Under the pieces are notes generated by a model, which made no database searches, was not told where the DNA came from, and saw nothing but the letters and a program-made list of their open reading frames with translations. From Planktothrix serta PCC 8927 (lineage in GTDB: Bacteria > Cyanobacteriota > Cyanobacteriia > Cyanobacteriales > Microcoleaceae), in NCBI RefSeq assembly GCF_900010725.2, contig NZ_LR734877.1, positions 169,431 to 227,957 of the forward strand: a stretch of DNA of 58,527 nucleotides. Reading direction: 5' to 3'. Shown one piece after another: positions 28,755 to 58,342 of the stretch (its first letter is position 1; the number at the start of each line of letters is the position of its first letter). The translations under genes and the position numbers were made by a program.

Positions 28755-31457
28755 CTATTGAATTGGAATCTCAACGATAAACTCCGAGCCTTCCCTAGCT
28801 TCAGATGAACACTTTAACTGACCCTGATGTCTTTCCACAACAATTTGATAACTAATTGCTAATCCTAAACCTGTTCCTTTCCCGACTGGTTTTGTTGTAA
28901 AGAAGGGATCAAATAATTTATTTTTAACGGCTTCTGTCATCCCCATCCCATTATCAGCAATGCGAATCAAAACTCTCTCATCCTGAATTACTTCTGTCGT
29001 AATTGTGATCGTAGGTTGCCAAGAATTTAAGGAATTATCCTCTGAAAACAACACCAAATCCTGTGGATTTAGATCAGAATAAACTTGTTCATCCCCTTCT
29101 AATATTTTTTCCTGAACTGCATCAATAGCATTGGTGAGTAAATTCATAAACACTTGGTTAATTTGACCCGCATAACATTCAACTAAGGGGAGATTTCCAT
29201 AGTGTTTAATGACTTGAATCGTTTGTTGTCCTCCCGCTTCTGATAAGCGATTTTGGAGAATTAATAATGTATTTTCTAAACCCTCATGTAAATTTACTTG
29301 TTTCACCGATGATTCATCTAAACGAGAAAAATTTCTTAACGATAAAACAATTTGTTGAATTCGACTTGCACCCAATTTCATCGAACTTAATAGTTTAGGA
29401 AAATCCCGTTGTAAGAATTCTAAATCAACGATTTCAGTCATTTCTTGAATAGGTGAAACAGGTTGAGGATAATACCGTTGATACAACGCTACTAAATTTA
29501 ATAAATCCTCCAGATATTGAGTCGCGTAAGTAACATTTCCGTAAATAAAATTAATCGGATTATTAATTTCATGGGCGACTCCAGCCACTAATTGACCTAA
29601 AGAAGACATTTTTTCGGTTTGAATTAAATGGGCTTGAGTTTGTTGTAATTTGTTTAAAGTCGTTTCTAATTCTAAAGTTTGAGATCTCGCTAATACGGCG
29701 GCTTCACGGGTTTGATTATAGAGTTGGGCTTGGTTAATTGCGATCGCCACTTGCGCCGTCACCGCCTGTAATAATTCCACTTCTGAATCACTCCAGCATC
29801 GGGGTTGCTGATGATTTCCGCAGACTAAAACCCCAATTTCTCCCATTTGGGTTTGGATCGGGAGAGACAGCACAGACACTAATCCAAATTTGAGTAAAAA
29901 TGACTTTCTTTGAGAATCAGAAAGCTGATCAATATGATCAATTCGTCCCATTTTTAAATGCAAATATTTTTCAGACCAAATCCCCACTTCCTCTAAAGAA
30001 TATCGACCAATAATATTGGGAAGAGTGGGATCTTTCGCTTCCGTTACAATTTCCCAATAAGCGGGATTCAAATAAGATTGAGATTGATTTTTATCTCTTG
30101 AATTAAAATTCATTTCTTCTCGACGATACCAACAAAAATAGCAGCGATCAACCTTCATTAATTCCCAAACTTGCAAAACCGTTGTTTCTAAAATTGTTTT
30201 CAAATCTAAGGAATTGCGAATTTGGTTAGCTAAATGATTAATCAGTTTTTCCTGTTGGGCGAGTTGTCGAAACCGAAGTTCAGATTCTGCTAATAATTCT
30301 TCGGCTAATTTTCGTTCGGTAACATCTTCATAAGTTCCTAAAATTCCCACGACCTTCCCCTCTAAATCATGCAGGGGAATCTTATTCGTTTCTATCCAAC
30401 ATTGTTTACCATTCGCATTCAATAGAGTTTCTATAATTCGATAACGAGGGGTATTCGCTGCCATCACTTCTTGATCAATTTTTCGATAATTTTCAACTTC
30501 AGCTAAACTGAAAGGTAAATCGTAATCTGTTTTGCCAATTAACGCTTCAGGAGATTTAAACCCCGCATCTAAAGCCACCTGTAAATTACACCCTAGATAT
30601 ACGGAATTGCGATCTTTCCAAAAAATACCTTGGGGGATCGTATTCATAATTAATTGCAGCATTTGTTGGGATTGTTGAAGATCTTCCTCTACTTTTTTGC
30701 GATCATTAATATCCGTAATTGTGCCAATATATCCCGTCATTTTCCCGCCGGAATCTTTCACGGGAACAGCTTGACCTAATACCCAAATTCCGCTTTGATC
30801 TAATGAGTTTAAACGATATTCTAAAGAAAAAGATTGTTGATTTTGAATCGCACTTGACCATTCTTGAATTAACCGTGCTCGATCATCAGGATAAATGCCA
30901 TCAACCCAACCCCAATTTAAAGCATCCGAGGGTGGCCGTCCTGTAATTCGACATCCATAGTCATTAATATATAAACAATGTCCCGTGACATCGGTTTCAA
31001 ACAAACCCACTGGACAAGCTTGCATTAAATCTTGATAATGTTGCAGGCTGATTTTTAAGGTTTGGTTGATTTTTTCAAGTTCTGGGAAAGGGGGAAGTTG
31101 TAACAGTTTAGGCAGTAAAGAAATTAGGGTATAGGATGTAAAAAGCGAAAGGACAGCCGTGATAGTTTTCAATCCTGCTGATAGCCAATACATTGGATAT
31201 CCCAGGGTAAAAATATCCATTAATGGCTGGAGTCCACAGGCAAAAATAAACGCACTTAATAGAATAAAAACACGGGAATCGGATAAATTTTGATGTTGGC
31301 GAACCCAGTAAATTAATGAGATAGAAATTAAAAAACAAGTCAGTGTAATTAACGAATCTGAGAGCAGATAAAGCCCCATTAATTTAGGTTGCCAACCAGA
31401 AGGCATTTCTGAAGCCATCGCAACCAGTTTTTGTGAAATCATCCAGGGGAAATTCAT
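28755..31457 (-). CDS. Membrane histidine kinase with ethylene-receptor-like sensor, PAS and GAF domains
   Basis: A 900-residue kinase. The N terminus (about 30-125) has three hydrophobic helices that align without gaps to the plant ETR1 ethylene-binding region: Asp34 at the position of ETR1 Asp25, Cys74 at Cys65, but Pro78 where the copper ligand His69 should be. Two PAS domains follow (about 135-260, 263-385; motifs CPVGLFETDVTGHC, ITDINDRKK, YEDVTERK). Then come a GAF domain (about 400-580), a coiled coil and HisKA (LVAGVAHEINNPINF, phospho-His). The ATPase has TNAIDAVQE, ADNGMGM and GKGTGLGLAIS. It acts at a membrane. No response regulator is adjacent. Confidence 0.9.
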   Translation of the reverse strand: MNFPWMISQKLVAMASEMPSGWQPKLMGLYLLSDSLITLTCFLISISLIYWVRQHQNLSDSRVFILLSAFIFACGLQPLMDIFTLGYPMYWLSAGLKTITAVLSLFTSYTLISLLPKLLQLPPFPELEKINQTLKISLQHYQDLMQACPVGLFETDVTGHCLYINDYGCRITGRPPSDALNWGWVDGIYPDDRARLIQEWSSAIQNQQSFSLEYRLNSLDQSGIWVLGQAVPVKDSGGKMTGYIGTITDINDRKKVEEDLQQSQQMLQLIMNTIPQGIFWKDRNSVYLGCNLQVALDAGFKSPEALIGKTDYDLPFSLAEVENYRKIDQEVMAANTPRYRIIETLLNANGKQCWIETNKIPLHDLEGKVVGILGTYEDVTERKLAEELLAESELRFRQLAQQEKLINHLANQIRNSLDLKTILETTVLQVWELMKVDRCYFCWYRREEMNFNSRDKNQSQSYLNPAYWEIVTEAKDPTLPNIIGRYSLEEVGIWSEKYLHLKMGRIDHIDQLSDSQRKSFLLKFGLVSVLSLPIQTQMGEIGVLVCGNHQQPRCWSDSEVELLQAVTAQVAIAINQAQLYNQTREAAVLARSQTLELETTLNKLQQTQAHLIQTEKMSSLGQLVAGVAHEINNPINFIYGNVTYATQYLEDLLNLVALYQRYYPQPVSPIQEMTEIVDLEFLQRDFPKLLSSMKLGASRIQQIVLSLRNFSRLDESSVKQVNLHEGLENTLLILQNRLSEAGGQQTIQVIKHYGNLPLVECYAGQINQVFMNLLTNAIDAVQEKILEGDEQVYSDLNPQDLVLFSEDNSLNSWQPTITITTEVIQDERVLIRIADNGMGMTEAVKNKLFDPFFTTKPVGKGTGLGLAISYQIVVERHQGQLKCSSEAREGSEFIVEIPIQ

Positions 31458-42197: not shown

Positions 42198-42250
42198 GTT
42201 GTTGAGCTTTAGCCCTCTCTGCTTTCCTTTTAGGGCTAAAGCCCAACAAC
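42198..42250. repeat. Palindromic repeat, GCTTTAGCCCT family
   Basis: Arms of 19 bases with one mismatch (42198-42216 and 42232-42250), closely related to 8671-8727. It lies between the HEPN gene and the convergent GT41 relic and encodes the last residues (VVGL) of that relic. Confidence 0.7.
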
Positions 42251-42525
42251 GGTTTGATAAAATTCCTCTAATGCAGCCACACAAACCTGATCATCAAAAA
42301 TCAGATGATGGCGATCGCTCATTTGTTCAGAAATTGTTTTGCGCCATACAGGATCTAACCCTAATTTAACTGCTATTTTAACATATTCTGCTTCATTTTC
42401 TGCAATTGTTTCTGTTAAGCCGATCATTTTTAGGAAACTATCAGCATGACGTCCGCGCATAAATTCCCCAGGGCAAGTTACAATGGGTAAATTACAAGCG
42501 ATCGCTTCTAAGGTGGGAGGATTGA
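42236..42525 (-). pseudogene. 3' fragment of a SPINDLY/GT41-type glycosyltransferase
   Basis: Read on the minus strand this gives LEAIACNLPIVTCPGEF and MRGRHADSFLKMIGLTETIA, then a Trp/His-rich end and a stop at 42236. It is the conserved C terminus of the O-GlcNAc-transferase-like (SPINDLY) proteins. Upstream, an in-frame stop (about 42529-42531) and the loss of homology show that the rest (over 600 residues) is gone. The intact protein at 53395-55632 is a related but distinct copy. Confidence 0.8.
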
Positions 42526-42606
42526 AAATTCCCTAATCCCCGTATATACATATAATAACCTTATTTTCATCCGAGAAAACCTGCGTTGATCAAAATTGGG
42601 ACAGAT

Positions 42607-44226
42607 ATGATCAGGAAAATAACTAAGTTGAGACAATTGCTGGACTCACAACAGTTAGAGTTTCTCATGGAAGCTCATAATGGATTAAGTGCTAGAATTG
42701 TAGAAGAAACTGGGTTTAAAGGCATTTGGGCGAGTGGTCTTTCCATCTCCGCAGCGCTAGGCGTTCGAGATAATAATGAGGCTAGTTGGACACAAGTGTT
42801 AGAAGTGCTTGAATTTATGTCCGATGCCACATCCATTCCAATTTTGTTGGATGGAGATACGGGTTATGGTAACTTTAATAATGTTCGTCGTTTAGTTAAA
42901 AAATTAGAACAACGGGGAATTGCTGGCGTTTGCATAGAAGATAAAGTCTTTCCTAAAACCAACAGTTTTATCAATGGAACAGCCCAACCTTTAGCGGATA
43001 TTGACGAATTTTGTGGAAAAATTAAGGCAGCTAAAGATGCTCAATTAGATGAAGATTTTGTCGTGATTGCTAGAATTGAAGCGTTTATTGCTGGATGGGG
43101 TTTATCGGAAGCTTTAAAACGAGCCGAAGCTTATCATCAAGCTGGAGCGAATGGGATTTTAATTCACAGTTCCTTACGAGTCCCCGATGAAATTTTAGCG
43201 TTTAAACAAGAGTGGGGAAATCGATGCCCTGTTGTGATTGTTCCCACTAAATATTATACCACACCGACTCAAGTTTTTCGAGATTATCAATTTTCAATTG
43301 CCATCTGGGCTAATCAGGTTTGTCGAGCCGCCATAACAGCAATGCAGCAAGCAACAAAACGAATTTTTACAGAAGAAAATTTATTAAATATTGAAGAAGA
43401 TATTGTTCCCGTTTCAGAAGTTTTTAGATTACAAGGAGCTTTAGAATTACAAGCGGCTGAAAAGCGTTATCTTCCTCAAAATCAAAAACAAAGCAGTGCC
43501 TTACTCTTAGCCGCATCAAGAGGAATTGAGTTGGGAGAATTTACCCTCGATAAACCTAAGTGTATGCTGGAGTTAAGGGGCAAACCTTTACTCTCTCAAG
43601 TGGCAGATACTTACCGAATGGTTGGGATTAAAGAGATTACTGTGGTTCGCGGATATAAGAAAGAGGTTATTAATTTACCCAATCTCAATTATATTGACAA
43701 CGATGATTATGACTCAACAGGGGAATTGATATCACTTCAGTTAGGCTTACAAAAATTTTCAGAAGGAAATCAGGATTTAATCATCGGTTATGGCGATGTT
43801 TTATTTAAAAAGTATGTCTTGCAACTGTTATTAGATAATAATCATGATTTTGTAGTAGTTGTTGATGCAAATAGCCAAGGTCAATCTAATTCTGTTCGCC
43901 CAGATTATGTTAGTTGTTCATTACCCAATTCTAAACAAGCTTTTTATACTGAGGTTTATTTACAGCAAATTAACAATCAACTTTCAAAATCGGAAAGTTG
44001 TGGGATGTGGACAGGAACTTTAAAAGTTTCTAGTCAAGGTCAAAATATCTTACGGGATACCTTGAAAACTTTACTGTTAGAAGAAACTGCACAGAAACAA
44101 GGAAGAATGCCAACCTTAATCAATGAAATTATTAAGCTTGGATATCCAATTCAGGTAATTTATATTACTGGCAATTGGTTAGATGTCGATGAAATTGAAG
44201 ATATGATTAAAGCAGGGAGTTTCTAA
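42607..44226 (+). CDS. aepX: Phosphoenolpyruvate mutase fused to a nucleotidyltransferase
   Basis: A 539-residue bifunctional enzyme. Residues 1-290 are PEP phosphomutase, which rearranges PEP to phosphonopyruvate, the entry step to nearly all phosphonates; [11 protein letters not shown] at 111-121 is the diagnostic PepM motif, with DGDTGYGN nearby for Mg. Residues 305-539 are an NTP-transferase domain ([31 protein letters not shown]) whose usual GxGxR loop is changed to AASRG. Such fusions (PntC type) make CMP-2-aminoethylphosphonate. I chose ATG 42607 over TTG 42586. It is the first gene of a six-gene operon. Confidence 0.92.
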
Positions 44227-45371
44227 TGATTCCAGCCGAAACGTTTATTCAAGCAACACAAAAGTTAGGATTTGGATTATATACAGGTGTTCCCTGTTCC
44301 TATCTGACACCTTTCATTAATTATGTGATTGATTCTACGGATTTACGCTATGTGGGGGCAGCTAATGAAGGGGATGCTGTAGCGATCGCATCGGGTGCAG
44401 AATTAACCGGAATTCCCAGTATTGTTATGTTTCAAAACTCTGGGTTAGGAAATGCGGTTAACCCCTTAACATCCCTCAATCAAACCTTTAAAATTCCCAT
44501 CCTAATTATTGTGACATGGCGGGGTCAACCCGATGGGGTTGCTGATGAACCTCAACATCATCTAATGGGACAAATTACACCGCAATTGCTGGAATTAATG
44601 CAAATTCCCTGGGATTATTTCCCCACAGAAGTTGAGGAAATTCAACCGACATTAAACCGGGCAATGGAACATCTGAAAACCCAGCAAACTCCTTATGCTT
44701 TAATTATGAAAAAAGGATCAGTGGAGTCTTGCCCTTTGAATTCTAGCCTACCCCCTAAACCTGATCAAGTTCCGAATACTTCAGCACAATTTGAATCTCA
44801 TGAAAGTTATAGTCGCCATGACATTTTGAAAGCAATTAAAAATCAGATTCAACCCTCAGATATTCTGTTAGCAACAACAGGCTATTGTGGTCGAGAACTG
44901 TATGCCATTGAAGATTGCCAGAATCAATTTTATATGGTTGGGTCAATGGGATGTGCTTCCAGTCTTGGCTTAGGAATTGCTTTGAATAAACCTCAACACC
45001 GTGTTATTGTTTTAGATGGAGATGGAGCCGCTTTAATGCGTTTAGGAGCCTTAGCAACTATTGGTTATGAACGGCCAACGAACCTTATTCATATTTTATT
45101 AGATAATCAATGCCATGAATCCACAGGAGGTCAATCTACCGTTTCCCATTCTATTGATTTTAGCGCGATCGCCTCGGCTTGCGGTTATGAAAAATTAGCC
45201 TGTTTAACGACACCCGAACAACTACAAAGTGCTTTAAGTTCCCCTTCAGAACAATTGACTTTCCTACACGTTAAAATCAAACCAGGAATTCCAAAACAAT
45301 TACCTCGACCCACCATTACCCCTCCTGAAGTTGCCCAACGTTTACGACAATTTTTATTAACCCAAGTATGA
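44226..45371 (+). CDS. aepY: Phosphonopyruvate decarboxylase
   Basis: A 381-residue thiamine-diphosphate enzyme that converts phosphonopyruvate to phosphonoacetaldehyde and makes the PepM step irreversible. Visible are GVPCSYLTPFI near the start, the Glu in AANEGDAVAIASG, and the ThDP/Mg motif GDGAALMRLGAL followed by DNQCHESTGGQ. The length is normal. Its ATG overlaps the previous stop (TAATG), giving tight coupling. Confidence 0.95.
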   Translation: MIPAETFIQATQKLGFGLYTGVPCSYLTPFINYVIDSTDLRYVGAANEGDAVAIASGAELTGIPSIVMFQNSGLGNAVNPLTSLNQTFKIPILIIVTWRGQPDGVADEPQHHLMGQITPQLLELMQIPWDYFPTEVEEIQPTLNRAMEHLKTQQTPYALIMKKGSVESCPLNSSLPPKPDQVPNTSAQFESHESYSRHDILKAIKNQIQPSDILLATTGYCGRELYAIEDCQNQFYMVGSMGCASSLGLGIALNKPQHRVIVLDGDGAALMRLGALATIGYERPTNLIHILLDNQCHESTGGQSTVSHSIDFSAIASACGYEKLACLTTPEQLQSALSSPSEQLTFLHVKIKPGIPKQLPRPTITPPEVAQRLRQFLLTQV

Positions 45372-46462
45372 AAATTCCCCATCGTCCTATTTTACTAAAC
45401 CCTGGCCCAGTAACTCTGAGTGAAAGAGTTCGTAAAGCTTTATTGCGAGAAGATTTATGCCATCGAGAACCAGAATTTGCTGAATTAATATTAGACATCA
45501 AAACTCGTTTATTGCAGGTTTATCCAGAAGCGACAAAAGATTATGAAGCCATTATTTTAACAGGTTCAGGAACCTCGGCTGTAGAAGCGATGCTATCAAC
45601 TTTAATTCCTCCATCAGGAAAAGCTTTAGTTGTCGCCAATGGGGTTTATGGAGAACGGATGGCTAAAATGATTCAAACTCACAATAAACCCTTAACAATC
45701 GTCAAATCTGCTTGGGATGAACCGATGAATCTCAATGAAGTTGAGAACTGTTTAAACCAAGATTCAACCATTACCCATATCGTAGCCGTTCACCATGAAA
45801 CAACGACAGGACGATTAAATGATATCGAAAAATTAGGAGAAATTTGCTACAATAAAAATATTGCTTTATTGTTAGATTGTGTCTCTAGTTTTGCAGCAGA
45901 AACCTTAAAATTCTCCCAGTGGAATTTAGAAGCTTGTGCCGCAACAGCTAATAAGTGTTTGCATGGGGTTCCAGGGTTGTCATTTGTTGTGGTGAAAAAA
46001 TCCGTCTTTGAGTCTCGTCCCTCGGCCGCTAATACCCTATATCTTGACCTTTATCCCTATCAAAAACAGCAACAAGAAGGTTACTCACCCTTTACTCAAG
46101 CCGTACAAATTAGTTATGCTTTGCAAGAAGCTTTAAAAGAATTAGAAGATTTAGGAGGATGGAAAACGAGACAACAGTTATATCAATATCGCTCTCACCA
46201 AATTCAAAATAAATTACAAAGTTTGGGAATTAAAACTCTTTTAGAACCTCAAGCTTATTCCTGTGTTTTAAAGTCTTATCAGTTACCGACGGGCTACACT
46301 TATCAGCAAATTCATGATCACTTAAAACAATCAGGTTTTGTCATTTATGCAGGACAAGGAGGGTTAGAAAACCGTATTTTCCGTATTGCTAATATGGGAG
46401 ATATTCAAGAAATTGAAATTCAATATCTTCTAGAATGCTTTGAAAAATTACTTCAATCTTAA
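45368..46462 (+). CDS. 2-aminoethylphosphonate aminotransferase
   Basis: A 364-residue fold-type-I PLP aminotransferase of the AEP/alanine-glyoxylate group. LNPGPVTLSERVRKALL is the typical start, ILTGSGTSAVEAML binds PLP phosphate, and the Schiff-base Lys is in ANKCLHGVPGL. In this operon it should run toward synthesis, aminating phosphonoacetaldehyde to AEP; PhnW, its relative, runs the other way in catabolism. It overlaps aepY by four bases (ATGA). No phosphonate-degradation genes are nearby. Confidence 0.9.
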   Translation: MKIPHRPILLNPGPVTLSERVRKALLREDLCHREPEFAELILDIKTRLLQVYPEATKDYEAIILTGSGTSAVEAMLSTLIPPSGKALVVANGVYGERMAKMIQTHNKPLTIVKSAWDEPMNLNEVENCLNQDSTITHIVAVHHETTTGRLNDIEKLGEICYNKNIALLLDCVSSFAAETLKFSQWNLEACAATANKCLHGVPGLSFVVVKKSVFESRPSAANTLYLDLYPYQKQQQEGYSPFTQAVQISYALQEALKELEDLGGWKTRQQLYQYRSHQIQNKLQSLGIKTLLEPQAYSCVLKSYQLPTGYTYQQIHDHLKQSGFVIYAGQGGLENRIFRIANMGDIQEIEIQYLLECFEKLLQS

Positions 46463-46472
46463 AGGAGGGTTT

Positions 46473-47030
46473 ATGGCTTTTAATTGGCATGAAGTTTGGG
46501 AGCGAAAGGGACGTTTAGAAACGACCAATTTAAAAGAGTTAGATGGGTTTGAAGAAACTACCATTGACCCGGAATGGGTAGCCAAGCAAATTAGTGATAT
46601 TTTAGAAATCAAACCCGATGATAAAGTCTTAGAAGTCGGTTGTGGGGCTGGGATGATTGCCCAATATTTAAACTGTGATTATGTCGGGATTGACTATTCA
46701 AAATCCTTAGTCCAAAAACATATTCAACTGCTGGGTCATTCAGTTTTACAGGGATCAGCGAATAATTTAATTTTTAAAGACCAATCCTTTGATAAAGTTT
46801 TTGCTTATAGTGTATTTCACTATTTCCCTGATTTAGATTACGCTAAAACCGTGATTCGAGAGATGAAAAGAGTTGCTAAAACGGCTATTTTTATTGGAGA
46901 TTTACCCTGCAAATCCCATCGTGCAGAACATCTTCTTTTTAATGCAGAAGATTTTAACGATGCTGAAACTACCCCAGGTTTTTATAATCCTGATCGATTT
47001 AATATCTTAATCAAAAATAAACTCTCTTAA
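46473..47030 (+). CDS. Class I SAM-dependent methyltransferase of the phosphonate operon
   Basis: A 185-residue methyltransferase with motif I KVLEVGCGAGMIAQYL, motif II YVGIDYSKSL and AYSVFHYFPDL. An AAAGGAGGG site precedes ATG 46473, 10 bases after the aminotransferase stop. The target is unknown. By position it may N-methylate AEP or modify the glycan acceptor. Confidence 0.8.
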   Translation: MAFNWHEVWERKGRLETTNLKELDGFEETTIDPEWVAKQISDILEIKPDDKVLEVGCGAGMIAQYLNCDYVGIDYSKSLVQKHIQLLGHSVLQGSANNLIFKDQSFDKVFAYSVFHYFPDLDYAKTVIREMKRVAKTAIFIGDLPCKSHRAEHLLFNAEDFNDAETTPGFYNPDRFNILIKNKLS

Positions 47031-47066
47031 TCCTGATAAACTAGAACTAAGGTTAGGAAATCGCCC

Positions 47067-48620
47067 ATGATAGAAAAGAAACCGATTCGGATTTATGTTG
47101 ATATGGTTGCTGACCTATTTCATGCGGGTCACGCCAATTTTTTGAAGCAAGCACGAGCTTTAGGGGATCAATTAATTGTTGGCATTCACTCGGATGAAAC
47201 CGTTGCTGGATACAAACGTCAACCTTTGATGAGTATGGCAGAAAGAATAGCAGTGGTTGAAAGTTGTCGCTATGTTGATGAAGTGATTCCTAATGCACCG
47301 CTAAATGTAACCTTAGACTACTTGAATCAATTAAAGATTGATTATGTTTGTCATGGCGATGATGTCTCTCCTGAAAATCTGGAAAAATGGTATGGAGAAA
47401 TTCACAAACAAGGTCGCCTCAAGTTAGTTCCTTATACTAAAAATATTTCTACCACTAATTTACTCCAGCGCGTTTCATCAAGAAGCAAATTTAATTTTAT
47501 CAGTCAACCCATTCAGGTTGATTTTGTCGCTTACCATGACTTACAAGCTCAAGCAGGACTATCCGTTTTTGAAGCCATGAGTCAACACTTTGATTGTCGT
47601 TGGTTAATTGGCCCTGAGCAACAACCCACAGGTGCAAAAGCCGCCGTTTTACTCGATCATACTCACCATCATCCTCAAATTAGAAAATCAGCGCAGGGTT
47701 ATCAATACTTATTTTATCTTCCCCATGACTTAGGAGATGTGGATGCTTATGAAATTGAAAAGCAACGGTTAAAGGAATTTAATATTATTTTTGTTCCCGG
47801 TTCGTTACACCGAAATTATGCTCAACAAGCATTAGGATTAAGTTATACACAACCTTTTCACAAACCCACCCAATTAATCTTACAAGGAGGCTGGCCAAAA
47901 TACGACAAAATCAACTTAGCTGAAAGTAATAATGAACTTTATTTAAAGTTAACCAACTTACCTTATGAATCTACCATTTTATATGCACCAACTTGGGGAC
48001 ATACGAGAGAATGGGAACAACTGTTACCCCTGTTTAAGAAACTTCCCTGTAACTTGATTATCAAAAATCATATTTATGTTAATCCAGGTCAAGCTTACCC
48101 CAAAGGGTTAGAAGCAATGTATGAAAGTTGTCTTCGTTCTGTTCAAGAAATGGAGGAATTTGCTTTAAACGATAACCCACCTAATATTATCGTAGCTCCC
48201 AGAACCTTAAATATCTGTACCCTATTTCCTTTTGTTGATATTTTAGTTTCGGATCAATCCTCAGTCAGTATAGAATTTCTTCCCTTTGGAACCAGTATAG
48301 AAACAGGTCGTTTTAATCCTGATCCGAATCAACTTAAACCTCAATCGAGTTTAATTTCTCAGGATGTTTTATTTATGCCTTTTGAACAACTTCAGGACGT
48401 TTTTGCTTCTGAGAAATCGTTCACAGATTTTATCAAAGAACAAAAACAAAAATCTGATCGTCAACAGATTGTTAACCAAAAAATTAAATTTTCAGGTCAA
48501 TTAATTGCTCAATTAATTGATCGCTATCTTTCATTCTGGCAAGTTCATGAACATCCAATTCAACCCCATACAGCCTTTGAAGCCCTGATGAATCAATGGC
48601 ATGATTTACTTTTAAGTTAA
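47067..48620 (+). CDS. Ethanolamine-phosphate-cytidylyltransferase-like domain fused to TagF-like phosphotransferase
   Basis: A 517-residue fusion. Residues 5-135 are a cytidylyltransferase: HAGH at 19-22, YVDEVIPNAP, CHGDD, and ISTT at 127-130 for CTP. This is most like eukaryote-type CTP:phosphoethanolamine cytidylyltransferase, and AEP is the C-P analogue of phosphoethanolamine. Residues 150-517 resemble CDP-glycerol/ribitol phosphotransferases (APTWGHTREW, the SDQSSVSIEFLPFG acceptor-site block). It may activate AEP or phosphoethanolamine and transfer it to a glycan or polymer. The precise reaction is inference. Confidence 0.82.
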   Translation: MIEKKPIRIYVDMVADLFHAGHANFLKQARALGDQLIVGIHSDETVAGYKRQPLMSMAERIAVVESCRYVDEVIPNAPLNVTLDYLNQLKIDYVCHGDDVSPENLEKWYGEIHKQGRLKLVPYTKNISTTNLLQRVSSRSKFNFISQPIQVDFVAYHDLQAQAGLSVFEAMSQHFDCRWLIGPEQQPTGAKAAVLLDHTHHHPQIRKSAQGYQYLFYLPHDLGDVDAYEIEKQRLKEFNIIFVPGSLHRNYAQQALGLSYTQPFHKPTQLILQGGWPKYDKINLAESNNELYLKLTNLPYESTILYAPTWGHTREWEQLLPLFKKLPCNLIIKNHIYVNPGQAYPKGLEAMYESCLRSVQEMEEFALNDNPPNIIVAPRTLNICTLFPFVDILVSDQSSVSIEFLPFGTSIETGRFNPDPNQLKPQSSLISQDVLFMPFEQLQDVFASEKSFTDFIKEQKQKSDRQQIVNQKIKFSGQLIAQLIDRYLSFWQVHEHPIQPHTAFEALMNQWHDLLLS

Positions 48621-48656
48621 GCTGTGTTGAATTTAATAATTAAAACTAGGAGATGA

Positions 48657-51164
48657 ATGATGTCAATTGATCCACAAATCTTAGAAACCTTAGAACCGTT
48701 AATTGATCAACTTCCAGAAGTTTATCAATCGATTTACTTAGGGAAGGAATTAGTTCGGGAAGGTTTACGTCAAAATGATTGGGAAAGGCTAGAAGTCATT
48801 AAAGATTATATTAAACCCGGTCAGACGATATTAGATGTGGGTTCTAACGTTGGTTTTTTTACGATTAATCTAGCAAAAATGTTTCCTGACAATGTATTTG
48901 TCAGCGTTGAAAAACAATATAGTTATGCTCGTCTACAAGCCGAATTAATTAAATTAGAAGGGGTTAAAAATGTTATTTTAATTAATTCTGTTGTAACTTC
49001 AGATTGGCTAATTAAAGCTTCCCAATCCTGTACTTATTTTGATGTGACTCTTTTACTTTCTGTCTTACATCATATTGAAGACGCAGAATATTTTTTAACA
49101 GAACTGAACAAAATTTCCAAATCTTTTATTATGGAACTTCCTCACCCCGATGAGTCTAGGGTGTGTGGAAAAGATATTTTAAAAACCCAGCTTACCTTGG
49201 ATAAAATTAGCCAAGTTAAACCCGTTTTTATTAAAATGAATTATGAAGCTACAACCCATTGTGATACCGAATTAACCCGCTCATTTTACTATGCGGATTC
49301 ACCGGATTACGAAAGAGAAGCGTTGTTTCCTTATATTGGCTATCCCTTAAACCCTCGTAACTATATTATTAAATCAACGGATCAAGGTGTTGTCATTCAT
49401 AAATCCCATCTGAAGCAAGATATTCAGATCATTCCAGGTGTTCTCCTTTATGATATTGCTCAAATTGGACAAATTTTTGCTCCTCAATATGAAACAGTTA
49501 AACAGCAAATAGAATCCCAATTTAAACGGCTTAATACTCTTGATAATGTAGCGGATATTAGACCTTGGAATCTATTATTTACAGCCGAGGGTCTAAAATT
49601 TATTGATTATCAATATACTTCTGATTTAGATGTAGATTTAAAATTTGATCATCAAAGAGACTTTAACCTCATCTGCAATTTTATCAATGACCTATTTGGC
49701 ATTTACCCTAAACCTCAAATTTTGATTGATGGCGTTTTTTTCCAACTTTACCAAACAGGAATTGCCAGGGTTTGGAAATCTTTACTCGAAGAATGGTCTA
49801 CTCAAGACTTTAGTAAACATATTTTAGTCTTAGATCGAGCCGGAACATCGCCCCGCATCCGTGGCATCCGATATCGAACTATTCCAGCTTATAGTTATAG
49901 TAGCACAGACCAAGATAAGCAAATGTTGCAGTATATCTGCGATGAAGAAGAAGCAGATTTATTCATTTCAACATACTATACTACTCCTCTAACAACCCCT
50001 TCAGTTTTTATGGCTTATGATATGATTCCTGAAGTTTTAGGGGGAAATTTGAATGAACCCATGTGGCGAGAAAAACATCATGCCATTCGCCATGCTTCTA
50101 CTTATATTTCTATTTCTGAAAATACAGCAAAGGATTTAGTCAAGCTGTTTCCTAATCTCTCTTTAGATGCCGTTACAGTCGCCCATTGTGGTGTATCTTC
50201 TATCTATACTCAGGCTACGGTAGAAGAAATTCGGCAATTTAGAATTAAATATGGAATTTATAAACCCTATTTTATTCTCGTGGGGATGAGCAATGGTTAT
50301 AAAAATGGAGAACTATTTTTTAAAGCTTTTTCTCAACTTTGTACTGCTCATGGCTTTGAGTTAGTTTGTACGGGAACAGGTGCTTTCTTTATGTCAGAAT
50401 TTAGACAATATACCCCTGGAGTTGTTGTTCATCCTTTACAACTCAATGATGAAGAATTAAAAGCGGCTTATTCAGGAGCCGTAGCTTTAGTTTATCCTTC
50501 TATTTATGAAGGATTTGGCTTACCGATTTTGGAAGCTTTAGCTTGTGGCTGTCCTGTGATTACTTGTTCTAATGCTTCAATTCCTGAAGTCGCTGGAGAA
50601 GCAGCTTTATATGTCAATGATCATGATGTAAATGGATTAACAGATGCTTTGTGTGAAGTACAGAAACCCAAAGTCCGTGAGTTTTTAATCGAAGCAGGTT
50701 TAGAACAAGCTAAAAAGTTCTCTTGGTCAAAAATGGCTGATCAGGTCAGTTTAGCTTTAATAAATGCAACACTTTTGCCCCTAAATTTGAGAGAGATCAA
50801 TTTAGTTGTTTTTCCCGATTGGACTCAACCAGAAGAAACCCTTTATTTAGAGTTGGGAACTATTATCCAAGCTATCTCAAATCACCCTGACAGAAGCCAA
50901 ATTACTTTACTGATTGATAATAGTAATATTATTGATGAAGATGCAGATTTAGCTTTATCTAGCGTGATTATGAACCTTATGATGGAAGCAGAATTTGAGG
51001 TTGATGAGAGTGTAGAAATGACTTTAATTGGAAACTTGAGTCAAATGCAGTGGAAAGCTTTATTAACTCATGTTCAAGGGTGGATTAGACTAGAGCATGA
51101 AAATCAAGAGGCGATCGCATCCGTCTGTGCAGAAATTATCCCAATTTATGATTTGACTATTTAG
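48657..51164 (+). CDS. Methyltransferase, kinase-like and GT4 glycosyltransferase fusion
   Basis: An 835-residue protein. Residues 40-180 are a class I methyltransferase (TILDVGSNVGFFTINLA). Residues about 200-345 include DIRPWNLLF and LKFIDYQYT, which resemble the catalytic and metal loops of a WbdD-type kinase (HxDlrPwN, DFD) but without a visible N-lobe. Residues 350-700 are a GT4 glycosyltransferase (YDMIPEVLGG; EGFGLPILEALACGCPVI). The last 120 residues are unassigned. Two ATGs lie at the start (48657 and 48660). It is the last gene of the operon. A role in surface glycan assembly or chain end modification is likely. Confidence 0.8.
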   Translation: MMSIDPQILETLEPLIDQLPEVYQSIYLGKELVREGLRQNDWERLEVIKDYIKPGQTILDVGSNVGFFTINLAKMFPDNVFVSVEKQYSYARLQAELIKLEGVKNVILINSVVTSDWLIKASQSCTYFDVTLLLSVLHHIEDAEYFLTELNKISKSFIMELPHPDESRVCGKDILKTQLTLDKISQVKPVFIKMNYEATTHCDTELTRSFYYADSPDYEREALFPYIGYPLNPRNYIIKSTDQGVVIHKSHLKQDIQIIPGVLLYDIAQIGQIFAPQYETVKQQIESQFKRLNTLDNVADIRPWNLLFTAEGLKFIDYQYTSDLDVDLKFDHQRDFNLICNFINDLFGIYPKPQILIDGVFFQLYQTGIARVWKSLLEEWSTQDFSKHILVLDRAGTSPRIRGIRYRTIPAYSYSSTDQDKQMLQYICDEEEADLFISTYYTTPLTTPSVFMAYDMIPEVLGGNLNEPMWREKHHAIRHASTYISISENTAKDLVKLFPNLSLDAVTVAHCGVSSIYTQATVEEIRQFRIKYGIYKPYFILVGMSNGYKNGELFFKAFSQLCTAHGFELVCTGTGAFFMSEFRQYTPGVVVHPLQLNDEELKAAYSGAVALVYPSIYEGFGLPILEALACGCPVITCSNASIPEVAGEAALYVNDHDVNGLTDALCEVQKPKVREFLIEAGLEQAKKFSWSKMADQVSLALINATLLPLNLREINLVVFPDWTQPEETLYLELGTIIQAISNHPDRSQITLLIDNSNIIDEDADLALSSVIMNLMMEAEFEVDESVEMTLIGNLSQMQWKALLTHVQGWIRLEHENQEAIASVCAEIIPIYDLTI

Positions 51165-53394: not shown

Positions 53395-55632
53395 TCAATT
53401 CTTACCCTCAATATACTTCTGCCACATTTGTTCATAAGCATTTTCCATTTCACGAGTAAACTGTTTCCCATTCCACAACGGAGCCGTTTGTCTGTTTTTC
53501 CTTAATTTCCAAGCAATTTGTTGGCGTAGATTTTCATCTGTTCCTAACTTAATTCCCCATTTCACATATTCTTCATCTGTCCAAGCAATACCTTCTGTAA
53601 TTCCGGCATTAATCATCATGGTATAACTATTGCGAGCCGCAAATTGTTCACCTACTCGTGTTACCATCGGAATTCCCATCCACAGAGTTTCCATTGTAGT
53701 TGTTGCGCCATTATAAGGATAGGTGTCTAATACGACATCACCAATACCAAGGTTGGCTCTGTGAATTTCCTCAGAAGGAGCCAAAGGTAAAAACTTTAAT
53801 CGTTCACATTCTATTCCTTCAGATTGTGCGATCTCAAAAAAGAATTTTTCCAGAGATTTTTGATCAGATACGCCCTTCACTAGAAGATAGCTATTGGGTA
53901 CAGCTTTGAGAATTTGTAATTGTAACCTTACGATGTCTGGATGACATTTGTATGCTCTTTGGGCGGTCAAATAAATAATAGAATCATTGGGAATATCTAG
54001 CTCATCTCGACGCAGGGTTGGTACACCCACTTCAAAACCATCTACTGCAATATAAGTTTGAGGTAAACGCCAAATTTTCTCCGTATAGTGGGCTTGAGCA
54101 TCCTCTGGAAGCACATAAGGATCAGCGATATAATAGTCAATTGTCGGGATATTACTCGCATCCCAACCCAGCCAGGTCACTTGAACAGGCGCGGGTTTAA
54201 TCGCCATAACATCAGCAGTATTAGTGAGTGTAATGCTATCAAGATCGACTAAAATATCAATTTCATCTTCATAAATTTTTTCAGCCGCTTCTGTTCCAGA
54301 TAATCCTAATAAATGACCTTTATTGACATGATCAAAGTACCAATTTTTCAAAGGATCATTAGTTTTTACTGTACTCATGAAGTAACCATAAATTTCAAAG
54401 CGATTCGGGTCATGGTGCTGAAATACCCATCGCGCTAACCAACCAACAGAATGAGAACGTAAACAATGAGAGAGATATCCTATCTTTAAACGTTTATTGC
54501 TACGTTCTTCAATTTTGATCAGGGGTGATTTCCACTTCCTAAATTTTTCCACTTCCTCGTGGGCATAAGATTCAATATTGAACTGGGCTATCTGGGCGAT
54601 TTGACGACGAATTGCTAAATTTTTATAAGGATTATCTTGAAAATACGCGAAGAAAAAGCTAGATGCAAATAAGCGTACCGTACTTGCAGGATCTAAAGAT
54701 CGCGGTTGCTGATCAAATAAAGTTTGCAACAATAAAAAGTGTTCGTTGAGTGCAACAGTAAACTCCTCCCAATATCCTCCCGCACTCATCAAAGCTCGCA
54801 TCAGGATATAGTTAGCATAGATTTTCTCTGTTAAAGTATCAGCAATAGATATAGAAACTTTAGCTGTTTCTATCCCCTTATTAAACTCATGAATATCCTG
54901 ATACAGGGATGATAAATTTATCAATAGCTCATAATTTTTAGGTTCAAGACGTAAACATAATTCTGTGTATTTTACTGCCAAATAATGGCGAGAAAATATG
55001 TAAGCCGTTTTATAAATAAACTCAATAAAAGTGGCTATAAATGGTGATGTATCCTTCACATAGGGTAAACACGCCTCAGTGAACTCTAATGTAGATGGCT
55101 CAAATGGAGCATAATCTAAAACATTTTTTAAAACTTCGAGTAAAAGATTGGAATCTAACCCAATATCTTTTTCTGAATTGAGGAAATTGATCACTCCCCA
55201 CTCTTTAAGTTCTTCTCCTGTATAGGTTGGAATAAGGGTTGATAATCCGATTAAATGCAATAAATTATTGATATCTTCCGGGTTAATTTCTCGAATATGC
55301 TGACGAATCACCCAAGCATTGGTATAATTTTTTGATTCTAACTGATGGTTAGCTTCAGTTTGCAAAACCTCGATTAGTTCTATTGTCCATTGCTCAATTT
55401 CTTCCGGCTCCCCTTCTGCCATTGCACATAACCAAGTCGTTTGTGCTTCTGTTTCTTGACCTTGTAGCAACAGTGCTAAACCCATGTACCAATAGTAAGC
55501 TTTACACTCCGGTTGAGCTTCAATAGCTTGTTCATAGAGTTGAGTGACTAGCGCATAATTCCCTTTTTGCCAAGCCTCATCAGCTTGCTGCTGCCCATCA
55601 AAAGAAAGAATTAAAGATTGTTCTGATATCAT
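53395..55632 (-). CDS. SPINDLY/O-GlcNAc-transferase-like glycosyltransferase (GT41)
   Basis: A 745-residue protein. Residues 1-280 are TPR-like helices (ADEAWQKGNYALVTQLYEQA, AYYWYMGLALLLQGQETEAQ). Residues 370-740 are the GT41 catalytic half (KRLKIGYLSHCLRSHSVGWL; PVQVTWLGWDAS; VLDTYPYNGATTTMETLWMG). Proteins of this group transfer sugars to protein Ser/Thr; a relative is needed for motility in filamentous cyanobacteria. It lies 124 bases beyond the pilin gene and on the same strand, so pilin is a natural candidate substrate. Start ATG 55632. Confidence 0.9.
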   Translation of the reverse strand: MISEQSLILSFDGQQQADEAWQKGNYALVTQLYEQAIEAQPECKAYYWYMGLALLLQGQETEAQTTWLCAMAEGEPEEIEQWTIELIEVLQTEANHQLESKNYTNAWVIRQHIREINPEDINNLLHLIGLSTLIPTYTGEELKEWGVINFLNSEKDIGLDSNLLLEVLKNVLDYAPFEPSTLEFTEACLPYVKDTSPFIATFIEFIYKTAYIFSRHYLAVKYTELCLRLEPKNYELLINLSSLYQDIHEFNKGIETAKVSISIADTLTEKIYANYILMRALMSAGGYWEEFTVALNEHFLLLQTLFDQQPRSLDPASTVRLFASSFFFAYFQDNPYKNLAIRRQIAQIAQFNIESYAHEEVEKFRKWKSPLIKIEERSNKRLKIGYLSHCLRSHSVGWLARWVFQHHDPNRFEIYGYFMSTVKTNDPLKNWYFDHVNKGHLLGLSGTEAAEKIYEDEIDILVDLDSITLTNTADVMAIKPAPVQVTWLGWDASNIPTIDYYIADPYVLPEDAQAHYTEKIWRLPQTYIAVDGFEVGVPTLRRDELDIPNDSIIYLTAQRAYKCHPDIVRLQLQILKAVPNSYLLVKGVSDQKSLEKFFFEIAQSEGIECERLKFLPLAPSEEIHRANLGIGDVVLDTYPYNGATTTMETLWMGIPMVTRVGEQFAARNSYTMMINAGITEGIAWTDEEYVKWGIKLGTDENLRQQIAWKLRKNRQTAPLWNGKQFTREMENAYEQMWQKYIEGKN

Positions 55633-55756: not shown

Positions 55757-56278
55757 TTATTTAGAGACTGCTGTGAAACCACCAGCACAAACCGGCGCCG
55801 CTGTACCATTTATGCTTAGATTTGTAGCAGCAGGAGTGTTACCAACGGCTCCTTCACACAGGATAGTCTGGGTTGTTTTGTCAGTATTCGCAGCACCCAC
55901 TAATCCAACTCCTGCCGCATAAGGCTTGAGACCCGCTGCTGGAGTAGCTCCAGCTGTAGCACCGCCTGCTATAGCTGCTGCCCCGTAAGTATAATTAGCA
56001 GTTAGGGTTTTGATCCCAATACCCAGTGATGGAATATCAGTACCAAACTTAGTATTTTCTACGTAATAGGCTTGTTGACCTTTATTAATGGAAGCTAGGT
56101 ATTGTTTGGCTTCAGATTGTTTGGCTTTATTCGCTTGGCTGAGGAAGGAAGGCAGAGCGATCGCAGCCAGAATACCGATAATGATAATAACAACTAACAG
56201 TTCAATTAAGGTGAAACCTTCTTCTTTTTTTCTATTAGAAACGTATTGCAGGAATTTCGCTTTAAATTCAGTCTTCAT
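55757..56278 (-). CDS. pilA: Type IV major pilin
   Basis: A 173-residue prepilin. After a basic leader, the prepilin-peptidase site is EEG|FTLIELLVV, with the conserved Glu5 and a hydrophobic N-terminal helix. The mature part is rich in Ala, Gly and Thr and ends with two Cys (TILCEGA and APVCAGG) for the C-terminal disulfide loop. ATG 56278 is preferred because CGGAGAAAAGATT precedes it; a longer frame to 56338 is unlikely. It forms adhesive or motility pili on the cell surface. Confidence 0.95.
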   Translation of the reverse strand: MKTEFKAKFLQYVSNRKKEEGFTLIELLVVIIIIGILAAIALPSFLSQANKAKQSEAKQYLASINKGQQAYYVENTKFGTDIPSLGIGIKTLTANYTYGAAAIAGGATAGATPAAGLKPYAAGVGLVGAANTDKTTQTILCEGAVGNTPAATNLSINGTAAPVCAGGFTAVSK

Positions 56279-56376
56279 AATCTTTTCTCCGTTTGGGGGG
56301 ATGTTTGGTTTTTTATCTGGTAGTTCTAACTTACCCACTGCTCTAAAGTTTCATATCACCCCAACAAAATTTTTTT

Positions 56377-56646
56377 TTAACTTGATCCCGAATGCTCCAA
56401 AAGCATATACAGAAAGGTATCTATGGTTTTGAGGACTTCTTTAACCTGCTCAAAGGCGATTTGAGGATTAATCAGTTCTAGGGTAACAGGGTCTACAGGT
56501 TGGATCTGTTGCCAACGTTTTACCAGGGATATTATAGGTTGTTCTACCTCCCACAGGGGCAGCAAATAGGCAGCCAAACGACTTCCCAGGGTAATTCCTA
56601 CAAGGGTTGGTAACTTAACATATTGACTGATATGAACTACGCACAT
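56377..56646 (-). pseudogene. 3' fragment of a methyltransferase split by a TnpB element
   Basis: The homologous part starts at about QYVKLPTLVGITLGSRLAA and ends FLYMLLEHSGSS. It resembles the C terminus of a cyanobacterial class I methyltransferase (LPTLVGITLGSR, VKRWQQIQPVDPVTL). The first residues of the frame (MCVVHIS) come from transposon DNA. The matching N-terminal fragment is at 58022-58240; the middle of the gene is missing. Confidence 0.65.
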
Positions 56647-57887
56647 CCGCTATCGCGCTCGATGTGCGTTTCTAACGCTTCAACTGAGAAACTTGCTTGA
56701 AGCTTCCGCACTCCTGTAGAGGTATTCTCATCTGCGTCTGAAGAGGCACGTTCCATACCCCTTGCGTAATTAAGCATCACCATTGCTGCGGCAACATCTC
56801 TATCACAATGAAACCCGCAATTAACACAATGATGTTCTCTTTCTGCTAATGTTTTCTTTTTCTGATGACCGCAATTTGGGCAAGTTTGTGAAGGTTTAAC
56901 TTTCTGAGTTGGAACCTCAATATAAAACCCACCTGCCTCAGTGACTTTATATTTAATTAAGTCTTTGAGATTTCCAATCCCCACGTCAAGTAAAGATCGA
57001 TTTAATCCTGATTTCTGACGTTTATTTTTACCTTTGGACTTGCGAGTCATCCCCTTAAGGTTTAATTTCTCAGTGGCTACGAAGCTATTACAGCTAACGA
57101 TTTCTGTAGACACTTTATGCTGCCAATCTTGTCTTTGTCTGGCAACCTTAGATTGGATTTTAGAGATGGCTTTATTCGCTTTTCTCCATCGTCGTGAAGC
57201 TTTAACTTTCTTCTGAGGAGGTCTTTTTTTGCGACTGGTTTTAGCGATTTTGTTGATTTTGCTTTGAGCAACTTTAACAAATCTGGGATTCTCAATGAAA
57301 TTACCATTCGAGTCGGCAATTGCATGATGAGTTCCGAAGTCTAAACCAATCGCACCAACGTCTGTTTGATAACGAGATGGTATGCAGTCAACTGTGATTG
57401 ACGCATACCATTTTCCTTGTGTGAACAGGATGGTACAAGTTTTAGGTTTTCCCCAATCTCTGGCTTGTTCCCGCATTTTAATGGTTCCTAAATTCGAGAT
57501 TTTTAGGGAACCATTTTTACCATTGGTTAAAGCTTTCCATCCGCTTTGACAAGGATAAGTCCATCCTTTATAACGCCGACTTTTCTTAAACTTGGGATAT
57601 CCAGATTTAAGCTTAAAGAAGCGTTGAAAGGCTAGGTCAACTCGTTTAACAGTGTCTTGTAATGCGTGGCTACCAAGTTCCTTATAATCCGTCCAGAATT
57701 CTTTGAACTCTGGCAAACAATTCTGTTGGTCGTAATAATTGACCGACTTATTGAATCGTTTGTAAGATGTTTTCCGATGTTCTACACAAGCATTATATAA
57801 AGCACAATGCAGTTTTCGCCAATAGTGCATTTTGTTGGCTTGCGCTTGAGTTGGATAGAGTCGGAAAGTCACTCTTTTGGTAGCCAT
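56637..57887 (-). CDS. tnpB: TnpB RNA-guided nuclease
   Basis: A 416-residue IS605 OrfB. The RuvC triad is visible: Asp in GAIGLDFGTHHA, Glu in FVATEKLNLKGM and Asp in HCDRDVAAAMVML. The zinc finger is CPNCGHQKK...CVNCGFHC. TnpB nucleases use an omega RNA from the element's 3' end and cut DNA next to a TAM. Start ATG 57887. The stop lies in a hairpin. It is intact and of normal length. Confidence 0.95.
   Translation of the reverse strand: MATKRVTFRLYPTQAQANKMHYWRKLHCALYNACVEHRKTSYKRFNKSVNYYDQQNCLPEFKEFWTDYKELGSHALQDTVKRVDLAFQRFFKLKSGYPKFKKSRRYKGWTYPCQSGWKALTNGKNGSLKISNLGTIKMREQARDWGKPKTCTILFTQGKWYASITVDCIPSRYQTDVGAIGLDFGTHHAIADSNGNFIENPRFVKVAQSKINKIAKTSRKKRPPQKKVKASRRWRKANKAISKIQSKVARQRQDWQHKVSTEIVSCNSFVATEKLNLKGMTRKSKGKNKRQKSGLNRSLLDVGIGNLKDLIKYKVTEAGGFYIEVPTQKVKPSQTCPNCGHQKKKTLAEREHHCVNCGFHCDRDVAAAMVMLNYARGMERASSDADENTSTGVRKLQASFSVEALETHIERDSGCA
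56639..56669. other. Hairpin at the tnpB 3' end
   Basis: Nine-base arms ACGCACATC (56639-56647) and GATGTGCGT (56661-56669), overlapping the tnpB stop codon. Subterminal hairpins like this lie at the right end of IS605-type elements, near the omega RNA guide. The overlap suggests that the guide sequence just outside is about 56610-56635. Confidence 0.6.
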
Positions 57888-58021
57888 AACATATCGACCT
57901 TCTGTTATATTTATGATTACTTATTATAATGTAGAATTTAAGAAGCATTACTGGGGTAAAGTTTCGTTTTGGTCTAACTAATACTATGTTGCTTCTTGCG
58001 GAGGCGCACCGATTGAGGTTC

Positions 58022-58240
58022 TTAAGAAATATATCCGGCTCCACACCCAGCATCTAAAATAACTTTTCCTTCTGTATTAATAACTTTCTGATATTTTAAA
58101 TAATAAGGCGTGACTAAATTGTGGATAAATAGCAACTCATAATCGGTTTTAGGCGATTGTTCTAAGGGAATTCTAGGATAGGGTGCTGAGTCAAACTGTT
58201 GACGAATTTTTTCTAATAATTCAGGATCTTGATTTTGCAT
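58022..58240 (-). pseudogene. 5' fragment of a methyltransferase split by a TnpB element
   Basis: Seventy-two codons from ATG 58240 read MQNQDPELLEKIRQQFDSAP and continue to ILDAGCGAGYIS, ending in a stop inside transposon DNA. GCGAG is motif I of a class I methyltransferase, so the break is in the SAM-binding fold. The C-terminal fragment (56377-56646) lies on the other side. The middle of the protein (likely over 200 residues) is missing, so the insertion was probably accompanied by a deletion. Confidence 0.75.
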
Positions 58241-58342
58241 TGTTGTTTTTCAATGGATCGATAAACGGTAAACTATTAAAGGGCGATCGCAACTCTGTTG
58301 GTATCGAATTAAATTGAGTCAGCCGTGAAATCAATTTCCGGC

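Follow-up and report, generated by a model that had tools for sequence, protein, structure and literature searches.

What does a cyanobacterium do with a phosphonate once the carbon–phosphorus (C–P) bond has been made? Which macromolecules cyanobacteria load with phosphonate, and by which enzymes activated 2-aminoethylphosphonate (AEP) is attached, are open questions in the field, and the tailoring steps that follow C–P bond formation have been termed enigmatic (PMC6697681). We take up this question for a six-gene operon of Planktothrix serta PCC 8927, in a stretch of 58,527 nucleotides (contig NZ_LR734877.1, positions 169,431 to 227,957; hereafter the window, whose coordinates are used throughout). 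The six open reading frames (ORFs) span 42607–51164 and are all intact and on the forward strand, as an earlier note made from the sequence alone had described. The overall reading of that note, in which AEP is activated with CTP and attached to a polysaccharide or glycoprotein, is partly supported here: its AEP route stands, the attachment to a surface glycan or glycoprotein is plausible, and the neighbourhood of the operon, a locus of the ogt–pilA type, had been missed. An operon for AEP in a pilin-glycosylation locus suggests, but does not prove, that pili carry phosphonate tags.

The first three genes are strongly predicted, from family models, to make AEP. Gene 1 (42607–44226) encodes a phosphoenolpyruvate (PEP) mutase (PepM, or Ppm) fused to a MobA/LicC-like nucleotidyltransferase, an arrangement of the PepM–PntC type. 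It scores 388.2 bits against TIGR02320 (cut-off 319.55), and its mutase half matches a solved PEP mutase, which we take to be that of Mytilus, at E = 1.4e-128. The motif EDKXXXXXNS, which marks Ppm proteins (PMC6697681), is present and is kept as EDK[VL]FPKTNS in five cyanobacterial fusions. Isocitrate lyase and phosphonopyruvate hydrolase are ruled out as identities by the model cut-offs, the scores being 237.9 bits against the phosphonopyruvate-hydrolase model TIGR02321 (cut-off 374.4) and 140.3 against the prpB model (cut-off 354.4). PF13714 has a single match in the window's genome; alone it is unspecific, matching 11 of 14 control genomes. Gene 2 (44226–45371) encodes phosphonopyruvate decarboxylase (Ppd; TIGR03297, 446.4 bits, cut-off 312.5) and gene 3 (45368–46462) an AEP aminotransferase (AEPT; TIGR03301, 388.9 bits, cut-off 360.8) that stays under the cut-off of the narrower PhnW model TIGR02326 (281.5 against 400.8). 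The full route to AEP is well supported by these models, with mutase activity a prediction from them, and the genes make up the Pnt-pathway set of a Ppm linked to a nucleotidyltransferase, Ppd and AEPT. Genes 1 and 2 overlap by one base (TAATG, 44224–44228) and genes 2 and 3 by four (ATGA, 45368–45371), as had been noted. Gene 4 has its likely start at ATG 46473, behind AGGAGG and 10 bases past gene 3, with no overlap; the ORF-list start, TTG 46440, was set aside in its favour.

The neighbourhood of the operon bears on what the AEP is for. Beyond it, on the reverse strand, lie ogt, encoding a GT41 protein glycosyltransferase of the O-GlcNAc-transferase type (53395–55632; PF13844, E = 3.3e-55), and a type IV pilin gene (55757–56338; PF07963, PF16734) whose product carries GFTLIELLVV and whose relatives share the start at ATG 56278. 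The pilin is matched in 56 of the 59 genomes of the window's family searched. We examined 30 of these loci, the best of the 56 at one per genome, which include the window's own and those of nine genus mates (two, L127 and L130, are interrupted by contig ends; L and G numbers denote compared loci and genomes, G000 being the window's own). An ogt homologue adjoins the pilin in all 30, and a conserved methyltransferase gene, gene X, occupies the pilin's other side in 27. Because a GT41 gene adjoins a type IV pilin in every locus, and because a review describes ogt as adjoining pilA in many cyanobacteria and taking part in PilA glycosylation (PMC12288463), the operon's neighbourhood is an ogt–pilA, that is, a pilin-glycosylation, locus. 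Such a setting favours a glycoprotein as the carrier, most probably the pilin, over a polysaccharide.

How the operon came to lie there can be read from its left edge. We compared the locus in eight other members of the genus, one of them (L064) cut off by its contig end shortly beyond ogt; the comparison does not extend to the wider locus of G389, the tenth genome. In these genus mates, varying glycosyltransferase and methyltransferase genes lie beyond ogt, which may be present more than once, and in six loci they are bounded by a further, ogt-like TPR/GT41 glycosyltransferase gene, of about 1000 residues in five and present as a 783-residue ORF in L063. The window retains a 3' remnant of about 90 codons of this gene (42236–42511, reverse strand), 79–96% identical to the gene's C-terminal part. 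The inserted block's left edge lies at 42511/42512: in all six same-genus loci fetched with the TPR/GT41 gene (L063, L065–L069) the alignment ends exactly at 42511, with identity to its left of 86–95% over the remnant alone and 87–88% where the alignment extends further. As similarity to the genus mates ends at this point, leaving some 90 codons, the phosphonate block has replaced, or broken into, a cassette of the ogt–pilA locus. The PepM fusion is absent from all nine genus mates searched (one of ten genomes in the genus has it) and occurs in 2 of 61 family genomes; what argues for acquisition into the locus is this patchy distribution together with the sharp edge at 42511. The glycosyltransferase (GT4) half and C-terminal domain of gene 6 have counterparts in five of the seven sufficiently long loci (L063, L065, L067, L069 and L070; not L066 or L068), joined to differing N-terminal halves: GT2 in L063, Methyltransf_23 in L065, FkbM and others in L070.

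Conservation of gene order in other cyanobacteria, a check proposed earlier, is found in Anabaena lutea FACHB-196 (L032), where the whole six-gene block is followed by two DUF29 ORFs, ogt, the pilin and gene X. The operon proteins are 67–81% identical to those of the window, and the block is collinear over 8532 aligned bases (42603–51069) at 76.0% identity with no stops, the differences falling on 0.36–0.48 of third codon positions versus 0.07–0.15 of second. Since it is collinear, free of stops and diverged mainly at third positions, the six-gene block is more than a chance association. That the two lineages exchanged the operon recently is unsupported, the protein identities showing no excess over the RF3 marker (83%); a first marker (28755–31457) was discarded for its 26 matches in A. 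lutea.

A second comparison comes from G201, a genome of the window's family with the same ogt–pilin locus and a different cassette head. PepM has no match in this genome, and instead of the AEP genes there is a nucleotidyltransferase fused to a CobD/HisC-type pyridoxal phosphate (PLP) enzyme, whose PLP half scores 166.6 bits against the CobD model (cut-off 290.55) and 138.7 against HisC, both under cut-off. The rest of the cassette consists of a small methyltransferase (33–34% identical to gene 4), a TagF-like protein without the cytidylyltransferase (60%) and a gene 6 homologue (62%). The TagF-like/gene-6 core adjoins ogt–pilin in all three genomes in which it was found (G000, A. lutea and G201). 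We rejected a link between PepM itself and pilin loci, as full PepM–nucleotidyltransferase fusions were seen in six cyanobacteria (G000, A. lutea, G358, G165, G125 and G418) and two of the six are pilin-linked. The part tied to the pilin is the TagF-like/gene-6 core, not the AEP genes.

If the operon makes AEP, it is also likely, by analogy, to activate it. PepM's fusion partner is a nucleotidyltransferase in its own right (PF12804, 47.4 bits against 27), so that the operon holds two, and LAASRG, DKPK, YGD[VL]LF and WLD are conserved across the five cyanobacterial fusions. The fusion is of a known kind, because PF12804 has been reported as the commonest fusion partner of Ppm, in about a third of Ppm proteins; two characterised PntC enzymes prefer AEP, with CMP-AEP identified as the product of one, and in some clusters a free-standing nucleotidyltransferase accompanies the fused one (PMC6697681). 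On the PntC precedent, which supports CTP activation, the PepM-fused domain appears a better candidate for the AEP activator than gene 5, where the earlier note had placed this step.

Gene 5 (47067–48620) begins with a cytidylyltransferase (CT) domain (residues ~4–138; PF01467) that matches human ethanolamine-phosphate cytidylyltransferase (ECT; 3ELB) at E = 9.8e-52, with HAGH and ISTT present, and whose substrate may be AEP or another compound. Its closeness, among solved proteins, to the human enzyme raises the prospect of two donors, in which the PepM-fused domain would make CMP-AEP and the gene 5 CT domain CDP-ethanolamine, the TagF-like domain mainly transferring phosphoethanolamine while AEP goes elsewhere. 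The pairing of a TagF-like protein with a PepM-free head in G201 fits this arrangement too. We nevertheless regard it as improbable, given that genes 1–6 are kept together at the above identities in A. lutea and that the CT domain accompanies the AEP genes in both genomes that have the CT–TagF fusion, the TagF-like protein of G201 lacking it.

The remaining domains supply candidate tailoring enzymes. Gene 4 (46473–47030; PF08241) encodes a small S-adenosylmethionine methyltransferase, a candidate AEP N-methyltransferase by presumed substrate, with homologues in L032 (72%), L104 (34%) and L035 (31%). The C-terminal part of gene 5 (~144–517) scores 27.0 bits against PF04464 (cut-off 22.1), the family of TagF-like phosphotransferases of CDP-glycerol type, and a three-sequence profile of the TagF part finds the TagF-like capsule polymerase Cps3D at a whole-sequence E-value of 3.1e-4, with K333-N334-H335 opposite R-G-H and DQSS opposite DYSS; the assignment to TagF is likely but distant. 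Although a search with gene 5 matches 154 of 386 genomes, among the matches listed only G000 and G201 cover the TagF part, and these are the only two of the 61 family genomes with it. Plasmid carriage of gene 5 was considered and dropped, as none of the 68 plasmid records matched covers more than 80% of the gene and the ten listed all match the CT domain; the insertion-sequence region of the window has no plasmid match.

Gene 6 (48657–51164) encodes a methyltransferase with weak Pfam matches, a kinase-like segment without family, a GT4 glycosyltransferase (PF13692/PF00534) and a C-terminal domain common to cassette proteins. With a four-sequence profile of its first half, the best solved match is WbdD (4azw/4azs, E = 1–2e-10; 4azw, 1.1e-10), over the methyltransferase part. 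Further along, D300, W304, N305 and D317 of D300-I-R-P-W304-N305...D317 are invariant in the four sequences and, matched by eye, are spaced like D351, W355, N356 and D369 of WbdD (the last within one residue), which are located in its kinase active site (PMC3482155). The methyltransferase–kinase half is matched in 3 of 386 genomes (G000, G201 and G264). The G264 copy is a stand-alone homologue (L105, 9683–10822; 39%), whose neighbours read, by eye and not by family search, like NeuB/NeuA-type sugar biosynthesis genes. The C-terminal domain of about 125 residues (~709–833; 50781–51161), with no Pfam match listed, recurs in L065–L070, sometimes twice per protein, in otherwise unlike proteins of pilin-locus cassettes, and could be a shared docking domain.

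At a hydropathy threshold of 1.6, at which two controls, the pilin and a CDP-alcohol phosphatidyltransferase, both show a membrane segment, none is suggested in the six operon proteins, ogt or intact gene X; the G201 nucleotidyltransferase/CobD–HisC-type fusion gives a borderline 1.61. A Pfam scan of the six operon proteins found no flippase, polymerase-exporter or oligosaccharyltransferase family.

The enzyme families, the intact genes, the synteny and the cassette boundary are thus read from the sequence itself; the substrates that follow AEP, its N-methylation, the order of steps, the acceptor sugar, the pilin as carrier and the product of the G201 head are what we infer. Our proposal borrows the logic of the flagellin type A modification of C. 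difficile, for which it has been proposed that CD0240 adds N-acetylglucosamine (GlcNAc) to flagellin, CD0242, which resembles phosphocholine cytidylyltransferase, makes CDP-threonine, CD0243 N-methylates, and the TagF-like CD0244 moves phosphothreonine onto the GlcNAc (PMC10714395). In the AEP version, PEP would be converted through phosphonopyruvate and phosphonoacetaldehyde to AEP, which would be activated as CMP-AEP, most likely by the PepM-fused nucleotidyltransferase, and probably N-methylated by gene 4. The cytoplasmic GT41 enzyme (ogt) would start a short O-glycan on a protein, most likely the neighbouring, presumably major, type IV pilin, the TagF-like domain of gene 5 would pass the phosphonyl group of the CMP donor on to one of that glycan's sugars, and gene 6 would add or cap a further sugar. 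In the window and G201 alike, the TagF-like domain would move a small 2-aminoalkyl-phosph(on)ate from a CMP or CDP donor to a pilin-linked sugar, with the donor module exchangeable. For this mechanism in full, as an exchangeable head-group cassette at ogt–pilA, we see the chances as evenly balanced. A wider reading seems somewhat less probable than that: some filamentous cyanobacteria may bear (N-methyl-)AEP on their type IV pili as a zwitterionic, hydrolysis-resistant tag, and ogt–pilA may be a site at which head-group modules are swapped round a transferase core, giving pilus 'serotypes', with phosphonate as the module of the window and A. lutea, a phosphate-linked amino-alcohol as that of G201, and other sugars or methyl groups elsewhere.

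Several observations weigh against this proposal. Four of the six full fusions (G358, G165, G125 and G418) have neither ogt nor a pilin in the ~20 kb stretch examined. Pilins insert in the membrane, which obliges a soluble enzyme to modify them no later than during that step. Alone against solved structures, the nucleotidyltransferase half of gene 1 is a distant relative, finding glucose-1-phosphate cytidylyltransferase (1tzf) first at E = 1.9e-7 and GlmU second, with LicC (1jyk) at 1.3e-4 and the T. denticola PntC (6pd1) at 0.011; by sequence, either of the two nucleotidyltransferases could be the AEP activator, and the proposal gives the CT domain of gene 5 no role of its own. The TagF-like homologue of G201 scores 19.6 against PF04464, below the cut-off of 22.1, and the Cps3D match is distant, its two stretches alone having i-Evalues of 8.2 and 0.42. 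Of the methyltransferase/kinase-like/GT4 fusion described earlier for gene 6, the WbdD-like methyltransferase and the GT4 hold, whereas a PDB search with the kinase-like segment by itself gives no significant match. The activities of CD0241, CD0242 and CD0244 are hypotheses of their authors (PMC10714395), and the window proteins are likened to CD0242–CD0244 by description, not by comparison of sequences. Furthermore, gene X is disrupted in the window (56377–58291, reverse strand): relative to L063 only its two ends are left (to 56631 and from 58030), some 290 middle codons are gone, and a TnpB-like ORF, named by eye, lies between them (56637–57887).

In a rival reading the carrier of the AEP is a polymer, namely an exopolysaccharide, capsule or LPS-type glycan, and the nearness of the pilin is incidental. 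TagF-like enzymes and WbdD work on polymers, the methyltransferase–kinase half of G264 stands among what look by eye like sialic-acid-type sugar genes with no ogt or pilin among its neighbours, and for most phosphonate clusters the predicted products are cell-wall phosphonoglycans and phosphonolipids (PMC6697681). We consider this carrier unlikely, though deserving of serious attention, as the Pfam scan brought up no exporter family in the six genes, the core is flanked by ogt and pilin wherever it was found, the ogt–pilin unit is constant across the loci examined, and the phosphonate of Prochlorococcus SB is in the protein, not the polysaccharide, fraction (PMC8931226).

Other cyanobacterial clusters illustrate what else AEP genes may be used for. 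A search with gene 1 matched 36 of 386 genomes, comprising four full-length fusions, one match to the nucleotidyltransferase half only (G276) and 31 mainly to the PepM half. In G358 (L035, 3174–8553), the PepM–nucleotidyltransferase, Ppd and AEPT genes lie beside a CDP-alcohol phosphatidyltransferase, an iron-dependent alcohol dehydrogenase (Fe-ADH)-like protein and a second nucleotidyltransferase, a set that resembles a variant for phosphonolipids or for some other tailoring. G418 has its three AEP genes on the same contig as the pilin, over 1 Mb away, and the gene after them encodes what by eye is a DMT/EamA-like membrane protein. Both clusters could be taken to favour a free small phosphonate or a phosphonolipid as the product in the window as well; we find this very improbable, since their extra genes are not in the window operon, which has instead TagF-like and GT4 proteins without predicted membrane segments. 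In L036 (G165) and L037 (G125), the AEP genes come after those for another MobA/LicC-like nucleotidyltransferase and for a HalD-like protein of the 2OG-Fe(II) oxygenase family (Pfam on the L036 copies only), and hydroxylated AEP is a possible product. Many members of the phylum outside the window's class, with genomes of 1.7–2.3 Mb, have frames of about 440 residues with a Fom1-like arrangement, a PF01467-like cytidylyltransferase coming first and a PepM-like domain second (for example, G335:C27, G214:C17 and G140:C3).

Phosphonate on pili, if true, would bear on phage and grazer resistance and on a freshwater source of phosphonate. The locus offers candidates for the AEP transferase and for the carrier protein and, in G201, a natural comparison with differing head-group genes, and direct testing is possible in A. 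lutea FACHB-196, which is held in (non-axenic) culture. This strain was among the eight non-axenic cultures used in work on phycosphere bacteria that degrade phosphonates (PMC10291797), passages of which do not mention pepM in the strain itself.

Among described systems, the Pnt clusters with PntC of Treponema denticola and Atopobium rimae, as presented in PMC6697681, share with the window the Ppm with nucleotidyltransferase, Ppd, AEPT, the presumed CMP-AEP donor and a cell-surface acceptor. They name LicD-like transferases and glycosyltransferases where the window has a TagF-like domain fused to a second, ECT-type cytidylyltransferase, and unlike them the window operon stands in an ogt–pilA locus. 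Gene 6 resembles WbdD of E. coli O9a (PMC3482155) in its methyltransferase plus kinase-like arrangement and in the D/W/N/D pattern, but it is fused to a GT4 and lies outside a polymannose locus, and its kinase homology is without statistical support.

Similar in logic are C. difficile type A (cd0240–cd0244; mutants in PMC4441256) and the P. aeruginosa b-type (PMC11833859), with a protein-linked sugar, a LicC-like CTP transferase, a small N-methyltransferase, a TagF-like transferase and a filament gene nearby. In the window the head would be AEP rather than phosphothreonine and the filament a type IV pilin rather than flagellin. As no family match to the phosphoserine-phosphatase-like enzyme of the CD0241/PA1089 type occurs among the six window genes, we describe the operon as working like type A and do not class it as a member. 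AEP has been seen by mass spectrometry on the type A GlcNAc of C. difficile, which is pepM-negative in the survey concerned (PMC8861647). The reported ions of this AEP form include m/z 126.03 and 311.10, of which the second equals, by our arithmetic, HexNAc plus AEP.

The idea of a cyanobacterial phosphonoglycoprotein is not new: for Prochlorococcus SB, as for the window, phosphonate has been proposed to sit on a surface glycoprotein (PMC8931226), there by a PglC/Wzx/PglL lipid-carrier route, here by enzymes without membrane segments, ogt and a named candidate carrier. In the open-licence literature, the titles and abstract openings among the matches listed contain no report of phosphonate on cyanobacterial pili or of a CMP-AEP transferase. 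The described cyanobacterial ogt–pilA locus (PMC12288463) and the window both have a GT41 ogt beside a pilin gene, and in the window the variable part is a phosphonate operon. The present contribution is this ogt–pilA location, a TagF-type candidate transferase and the exchange of head groups.

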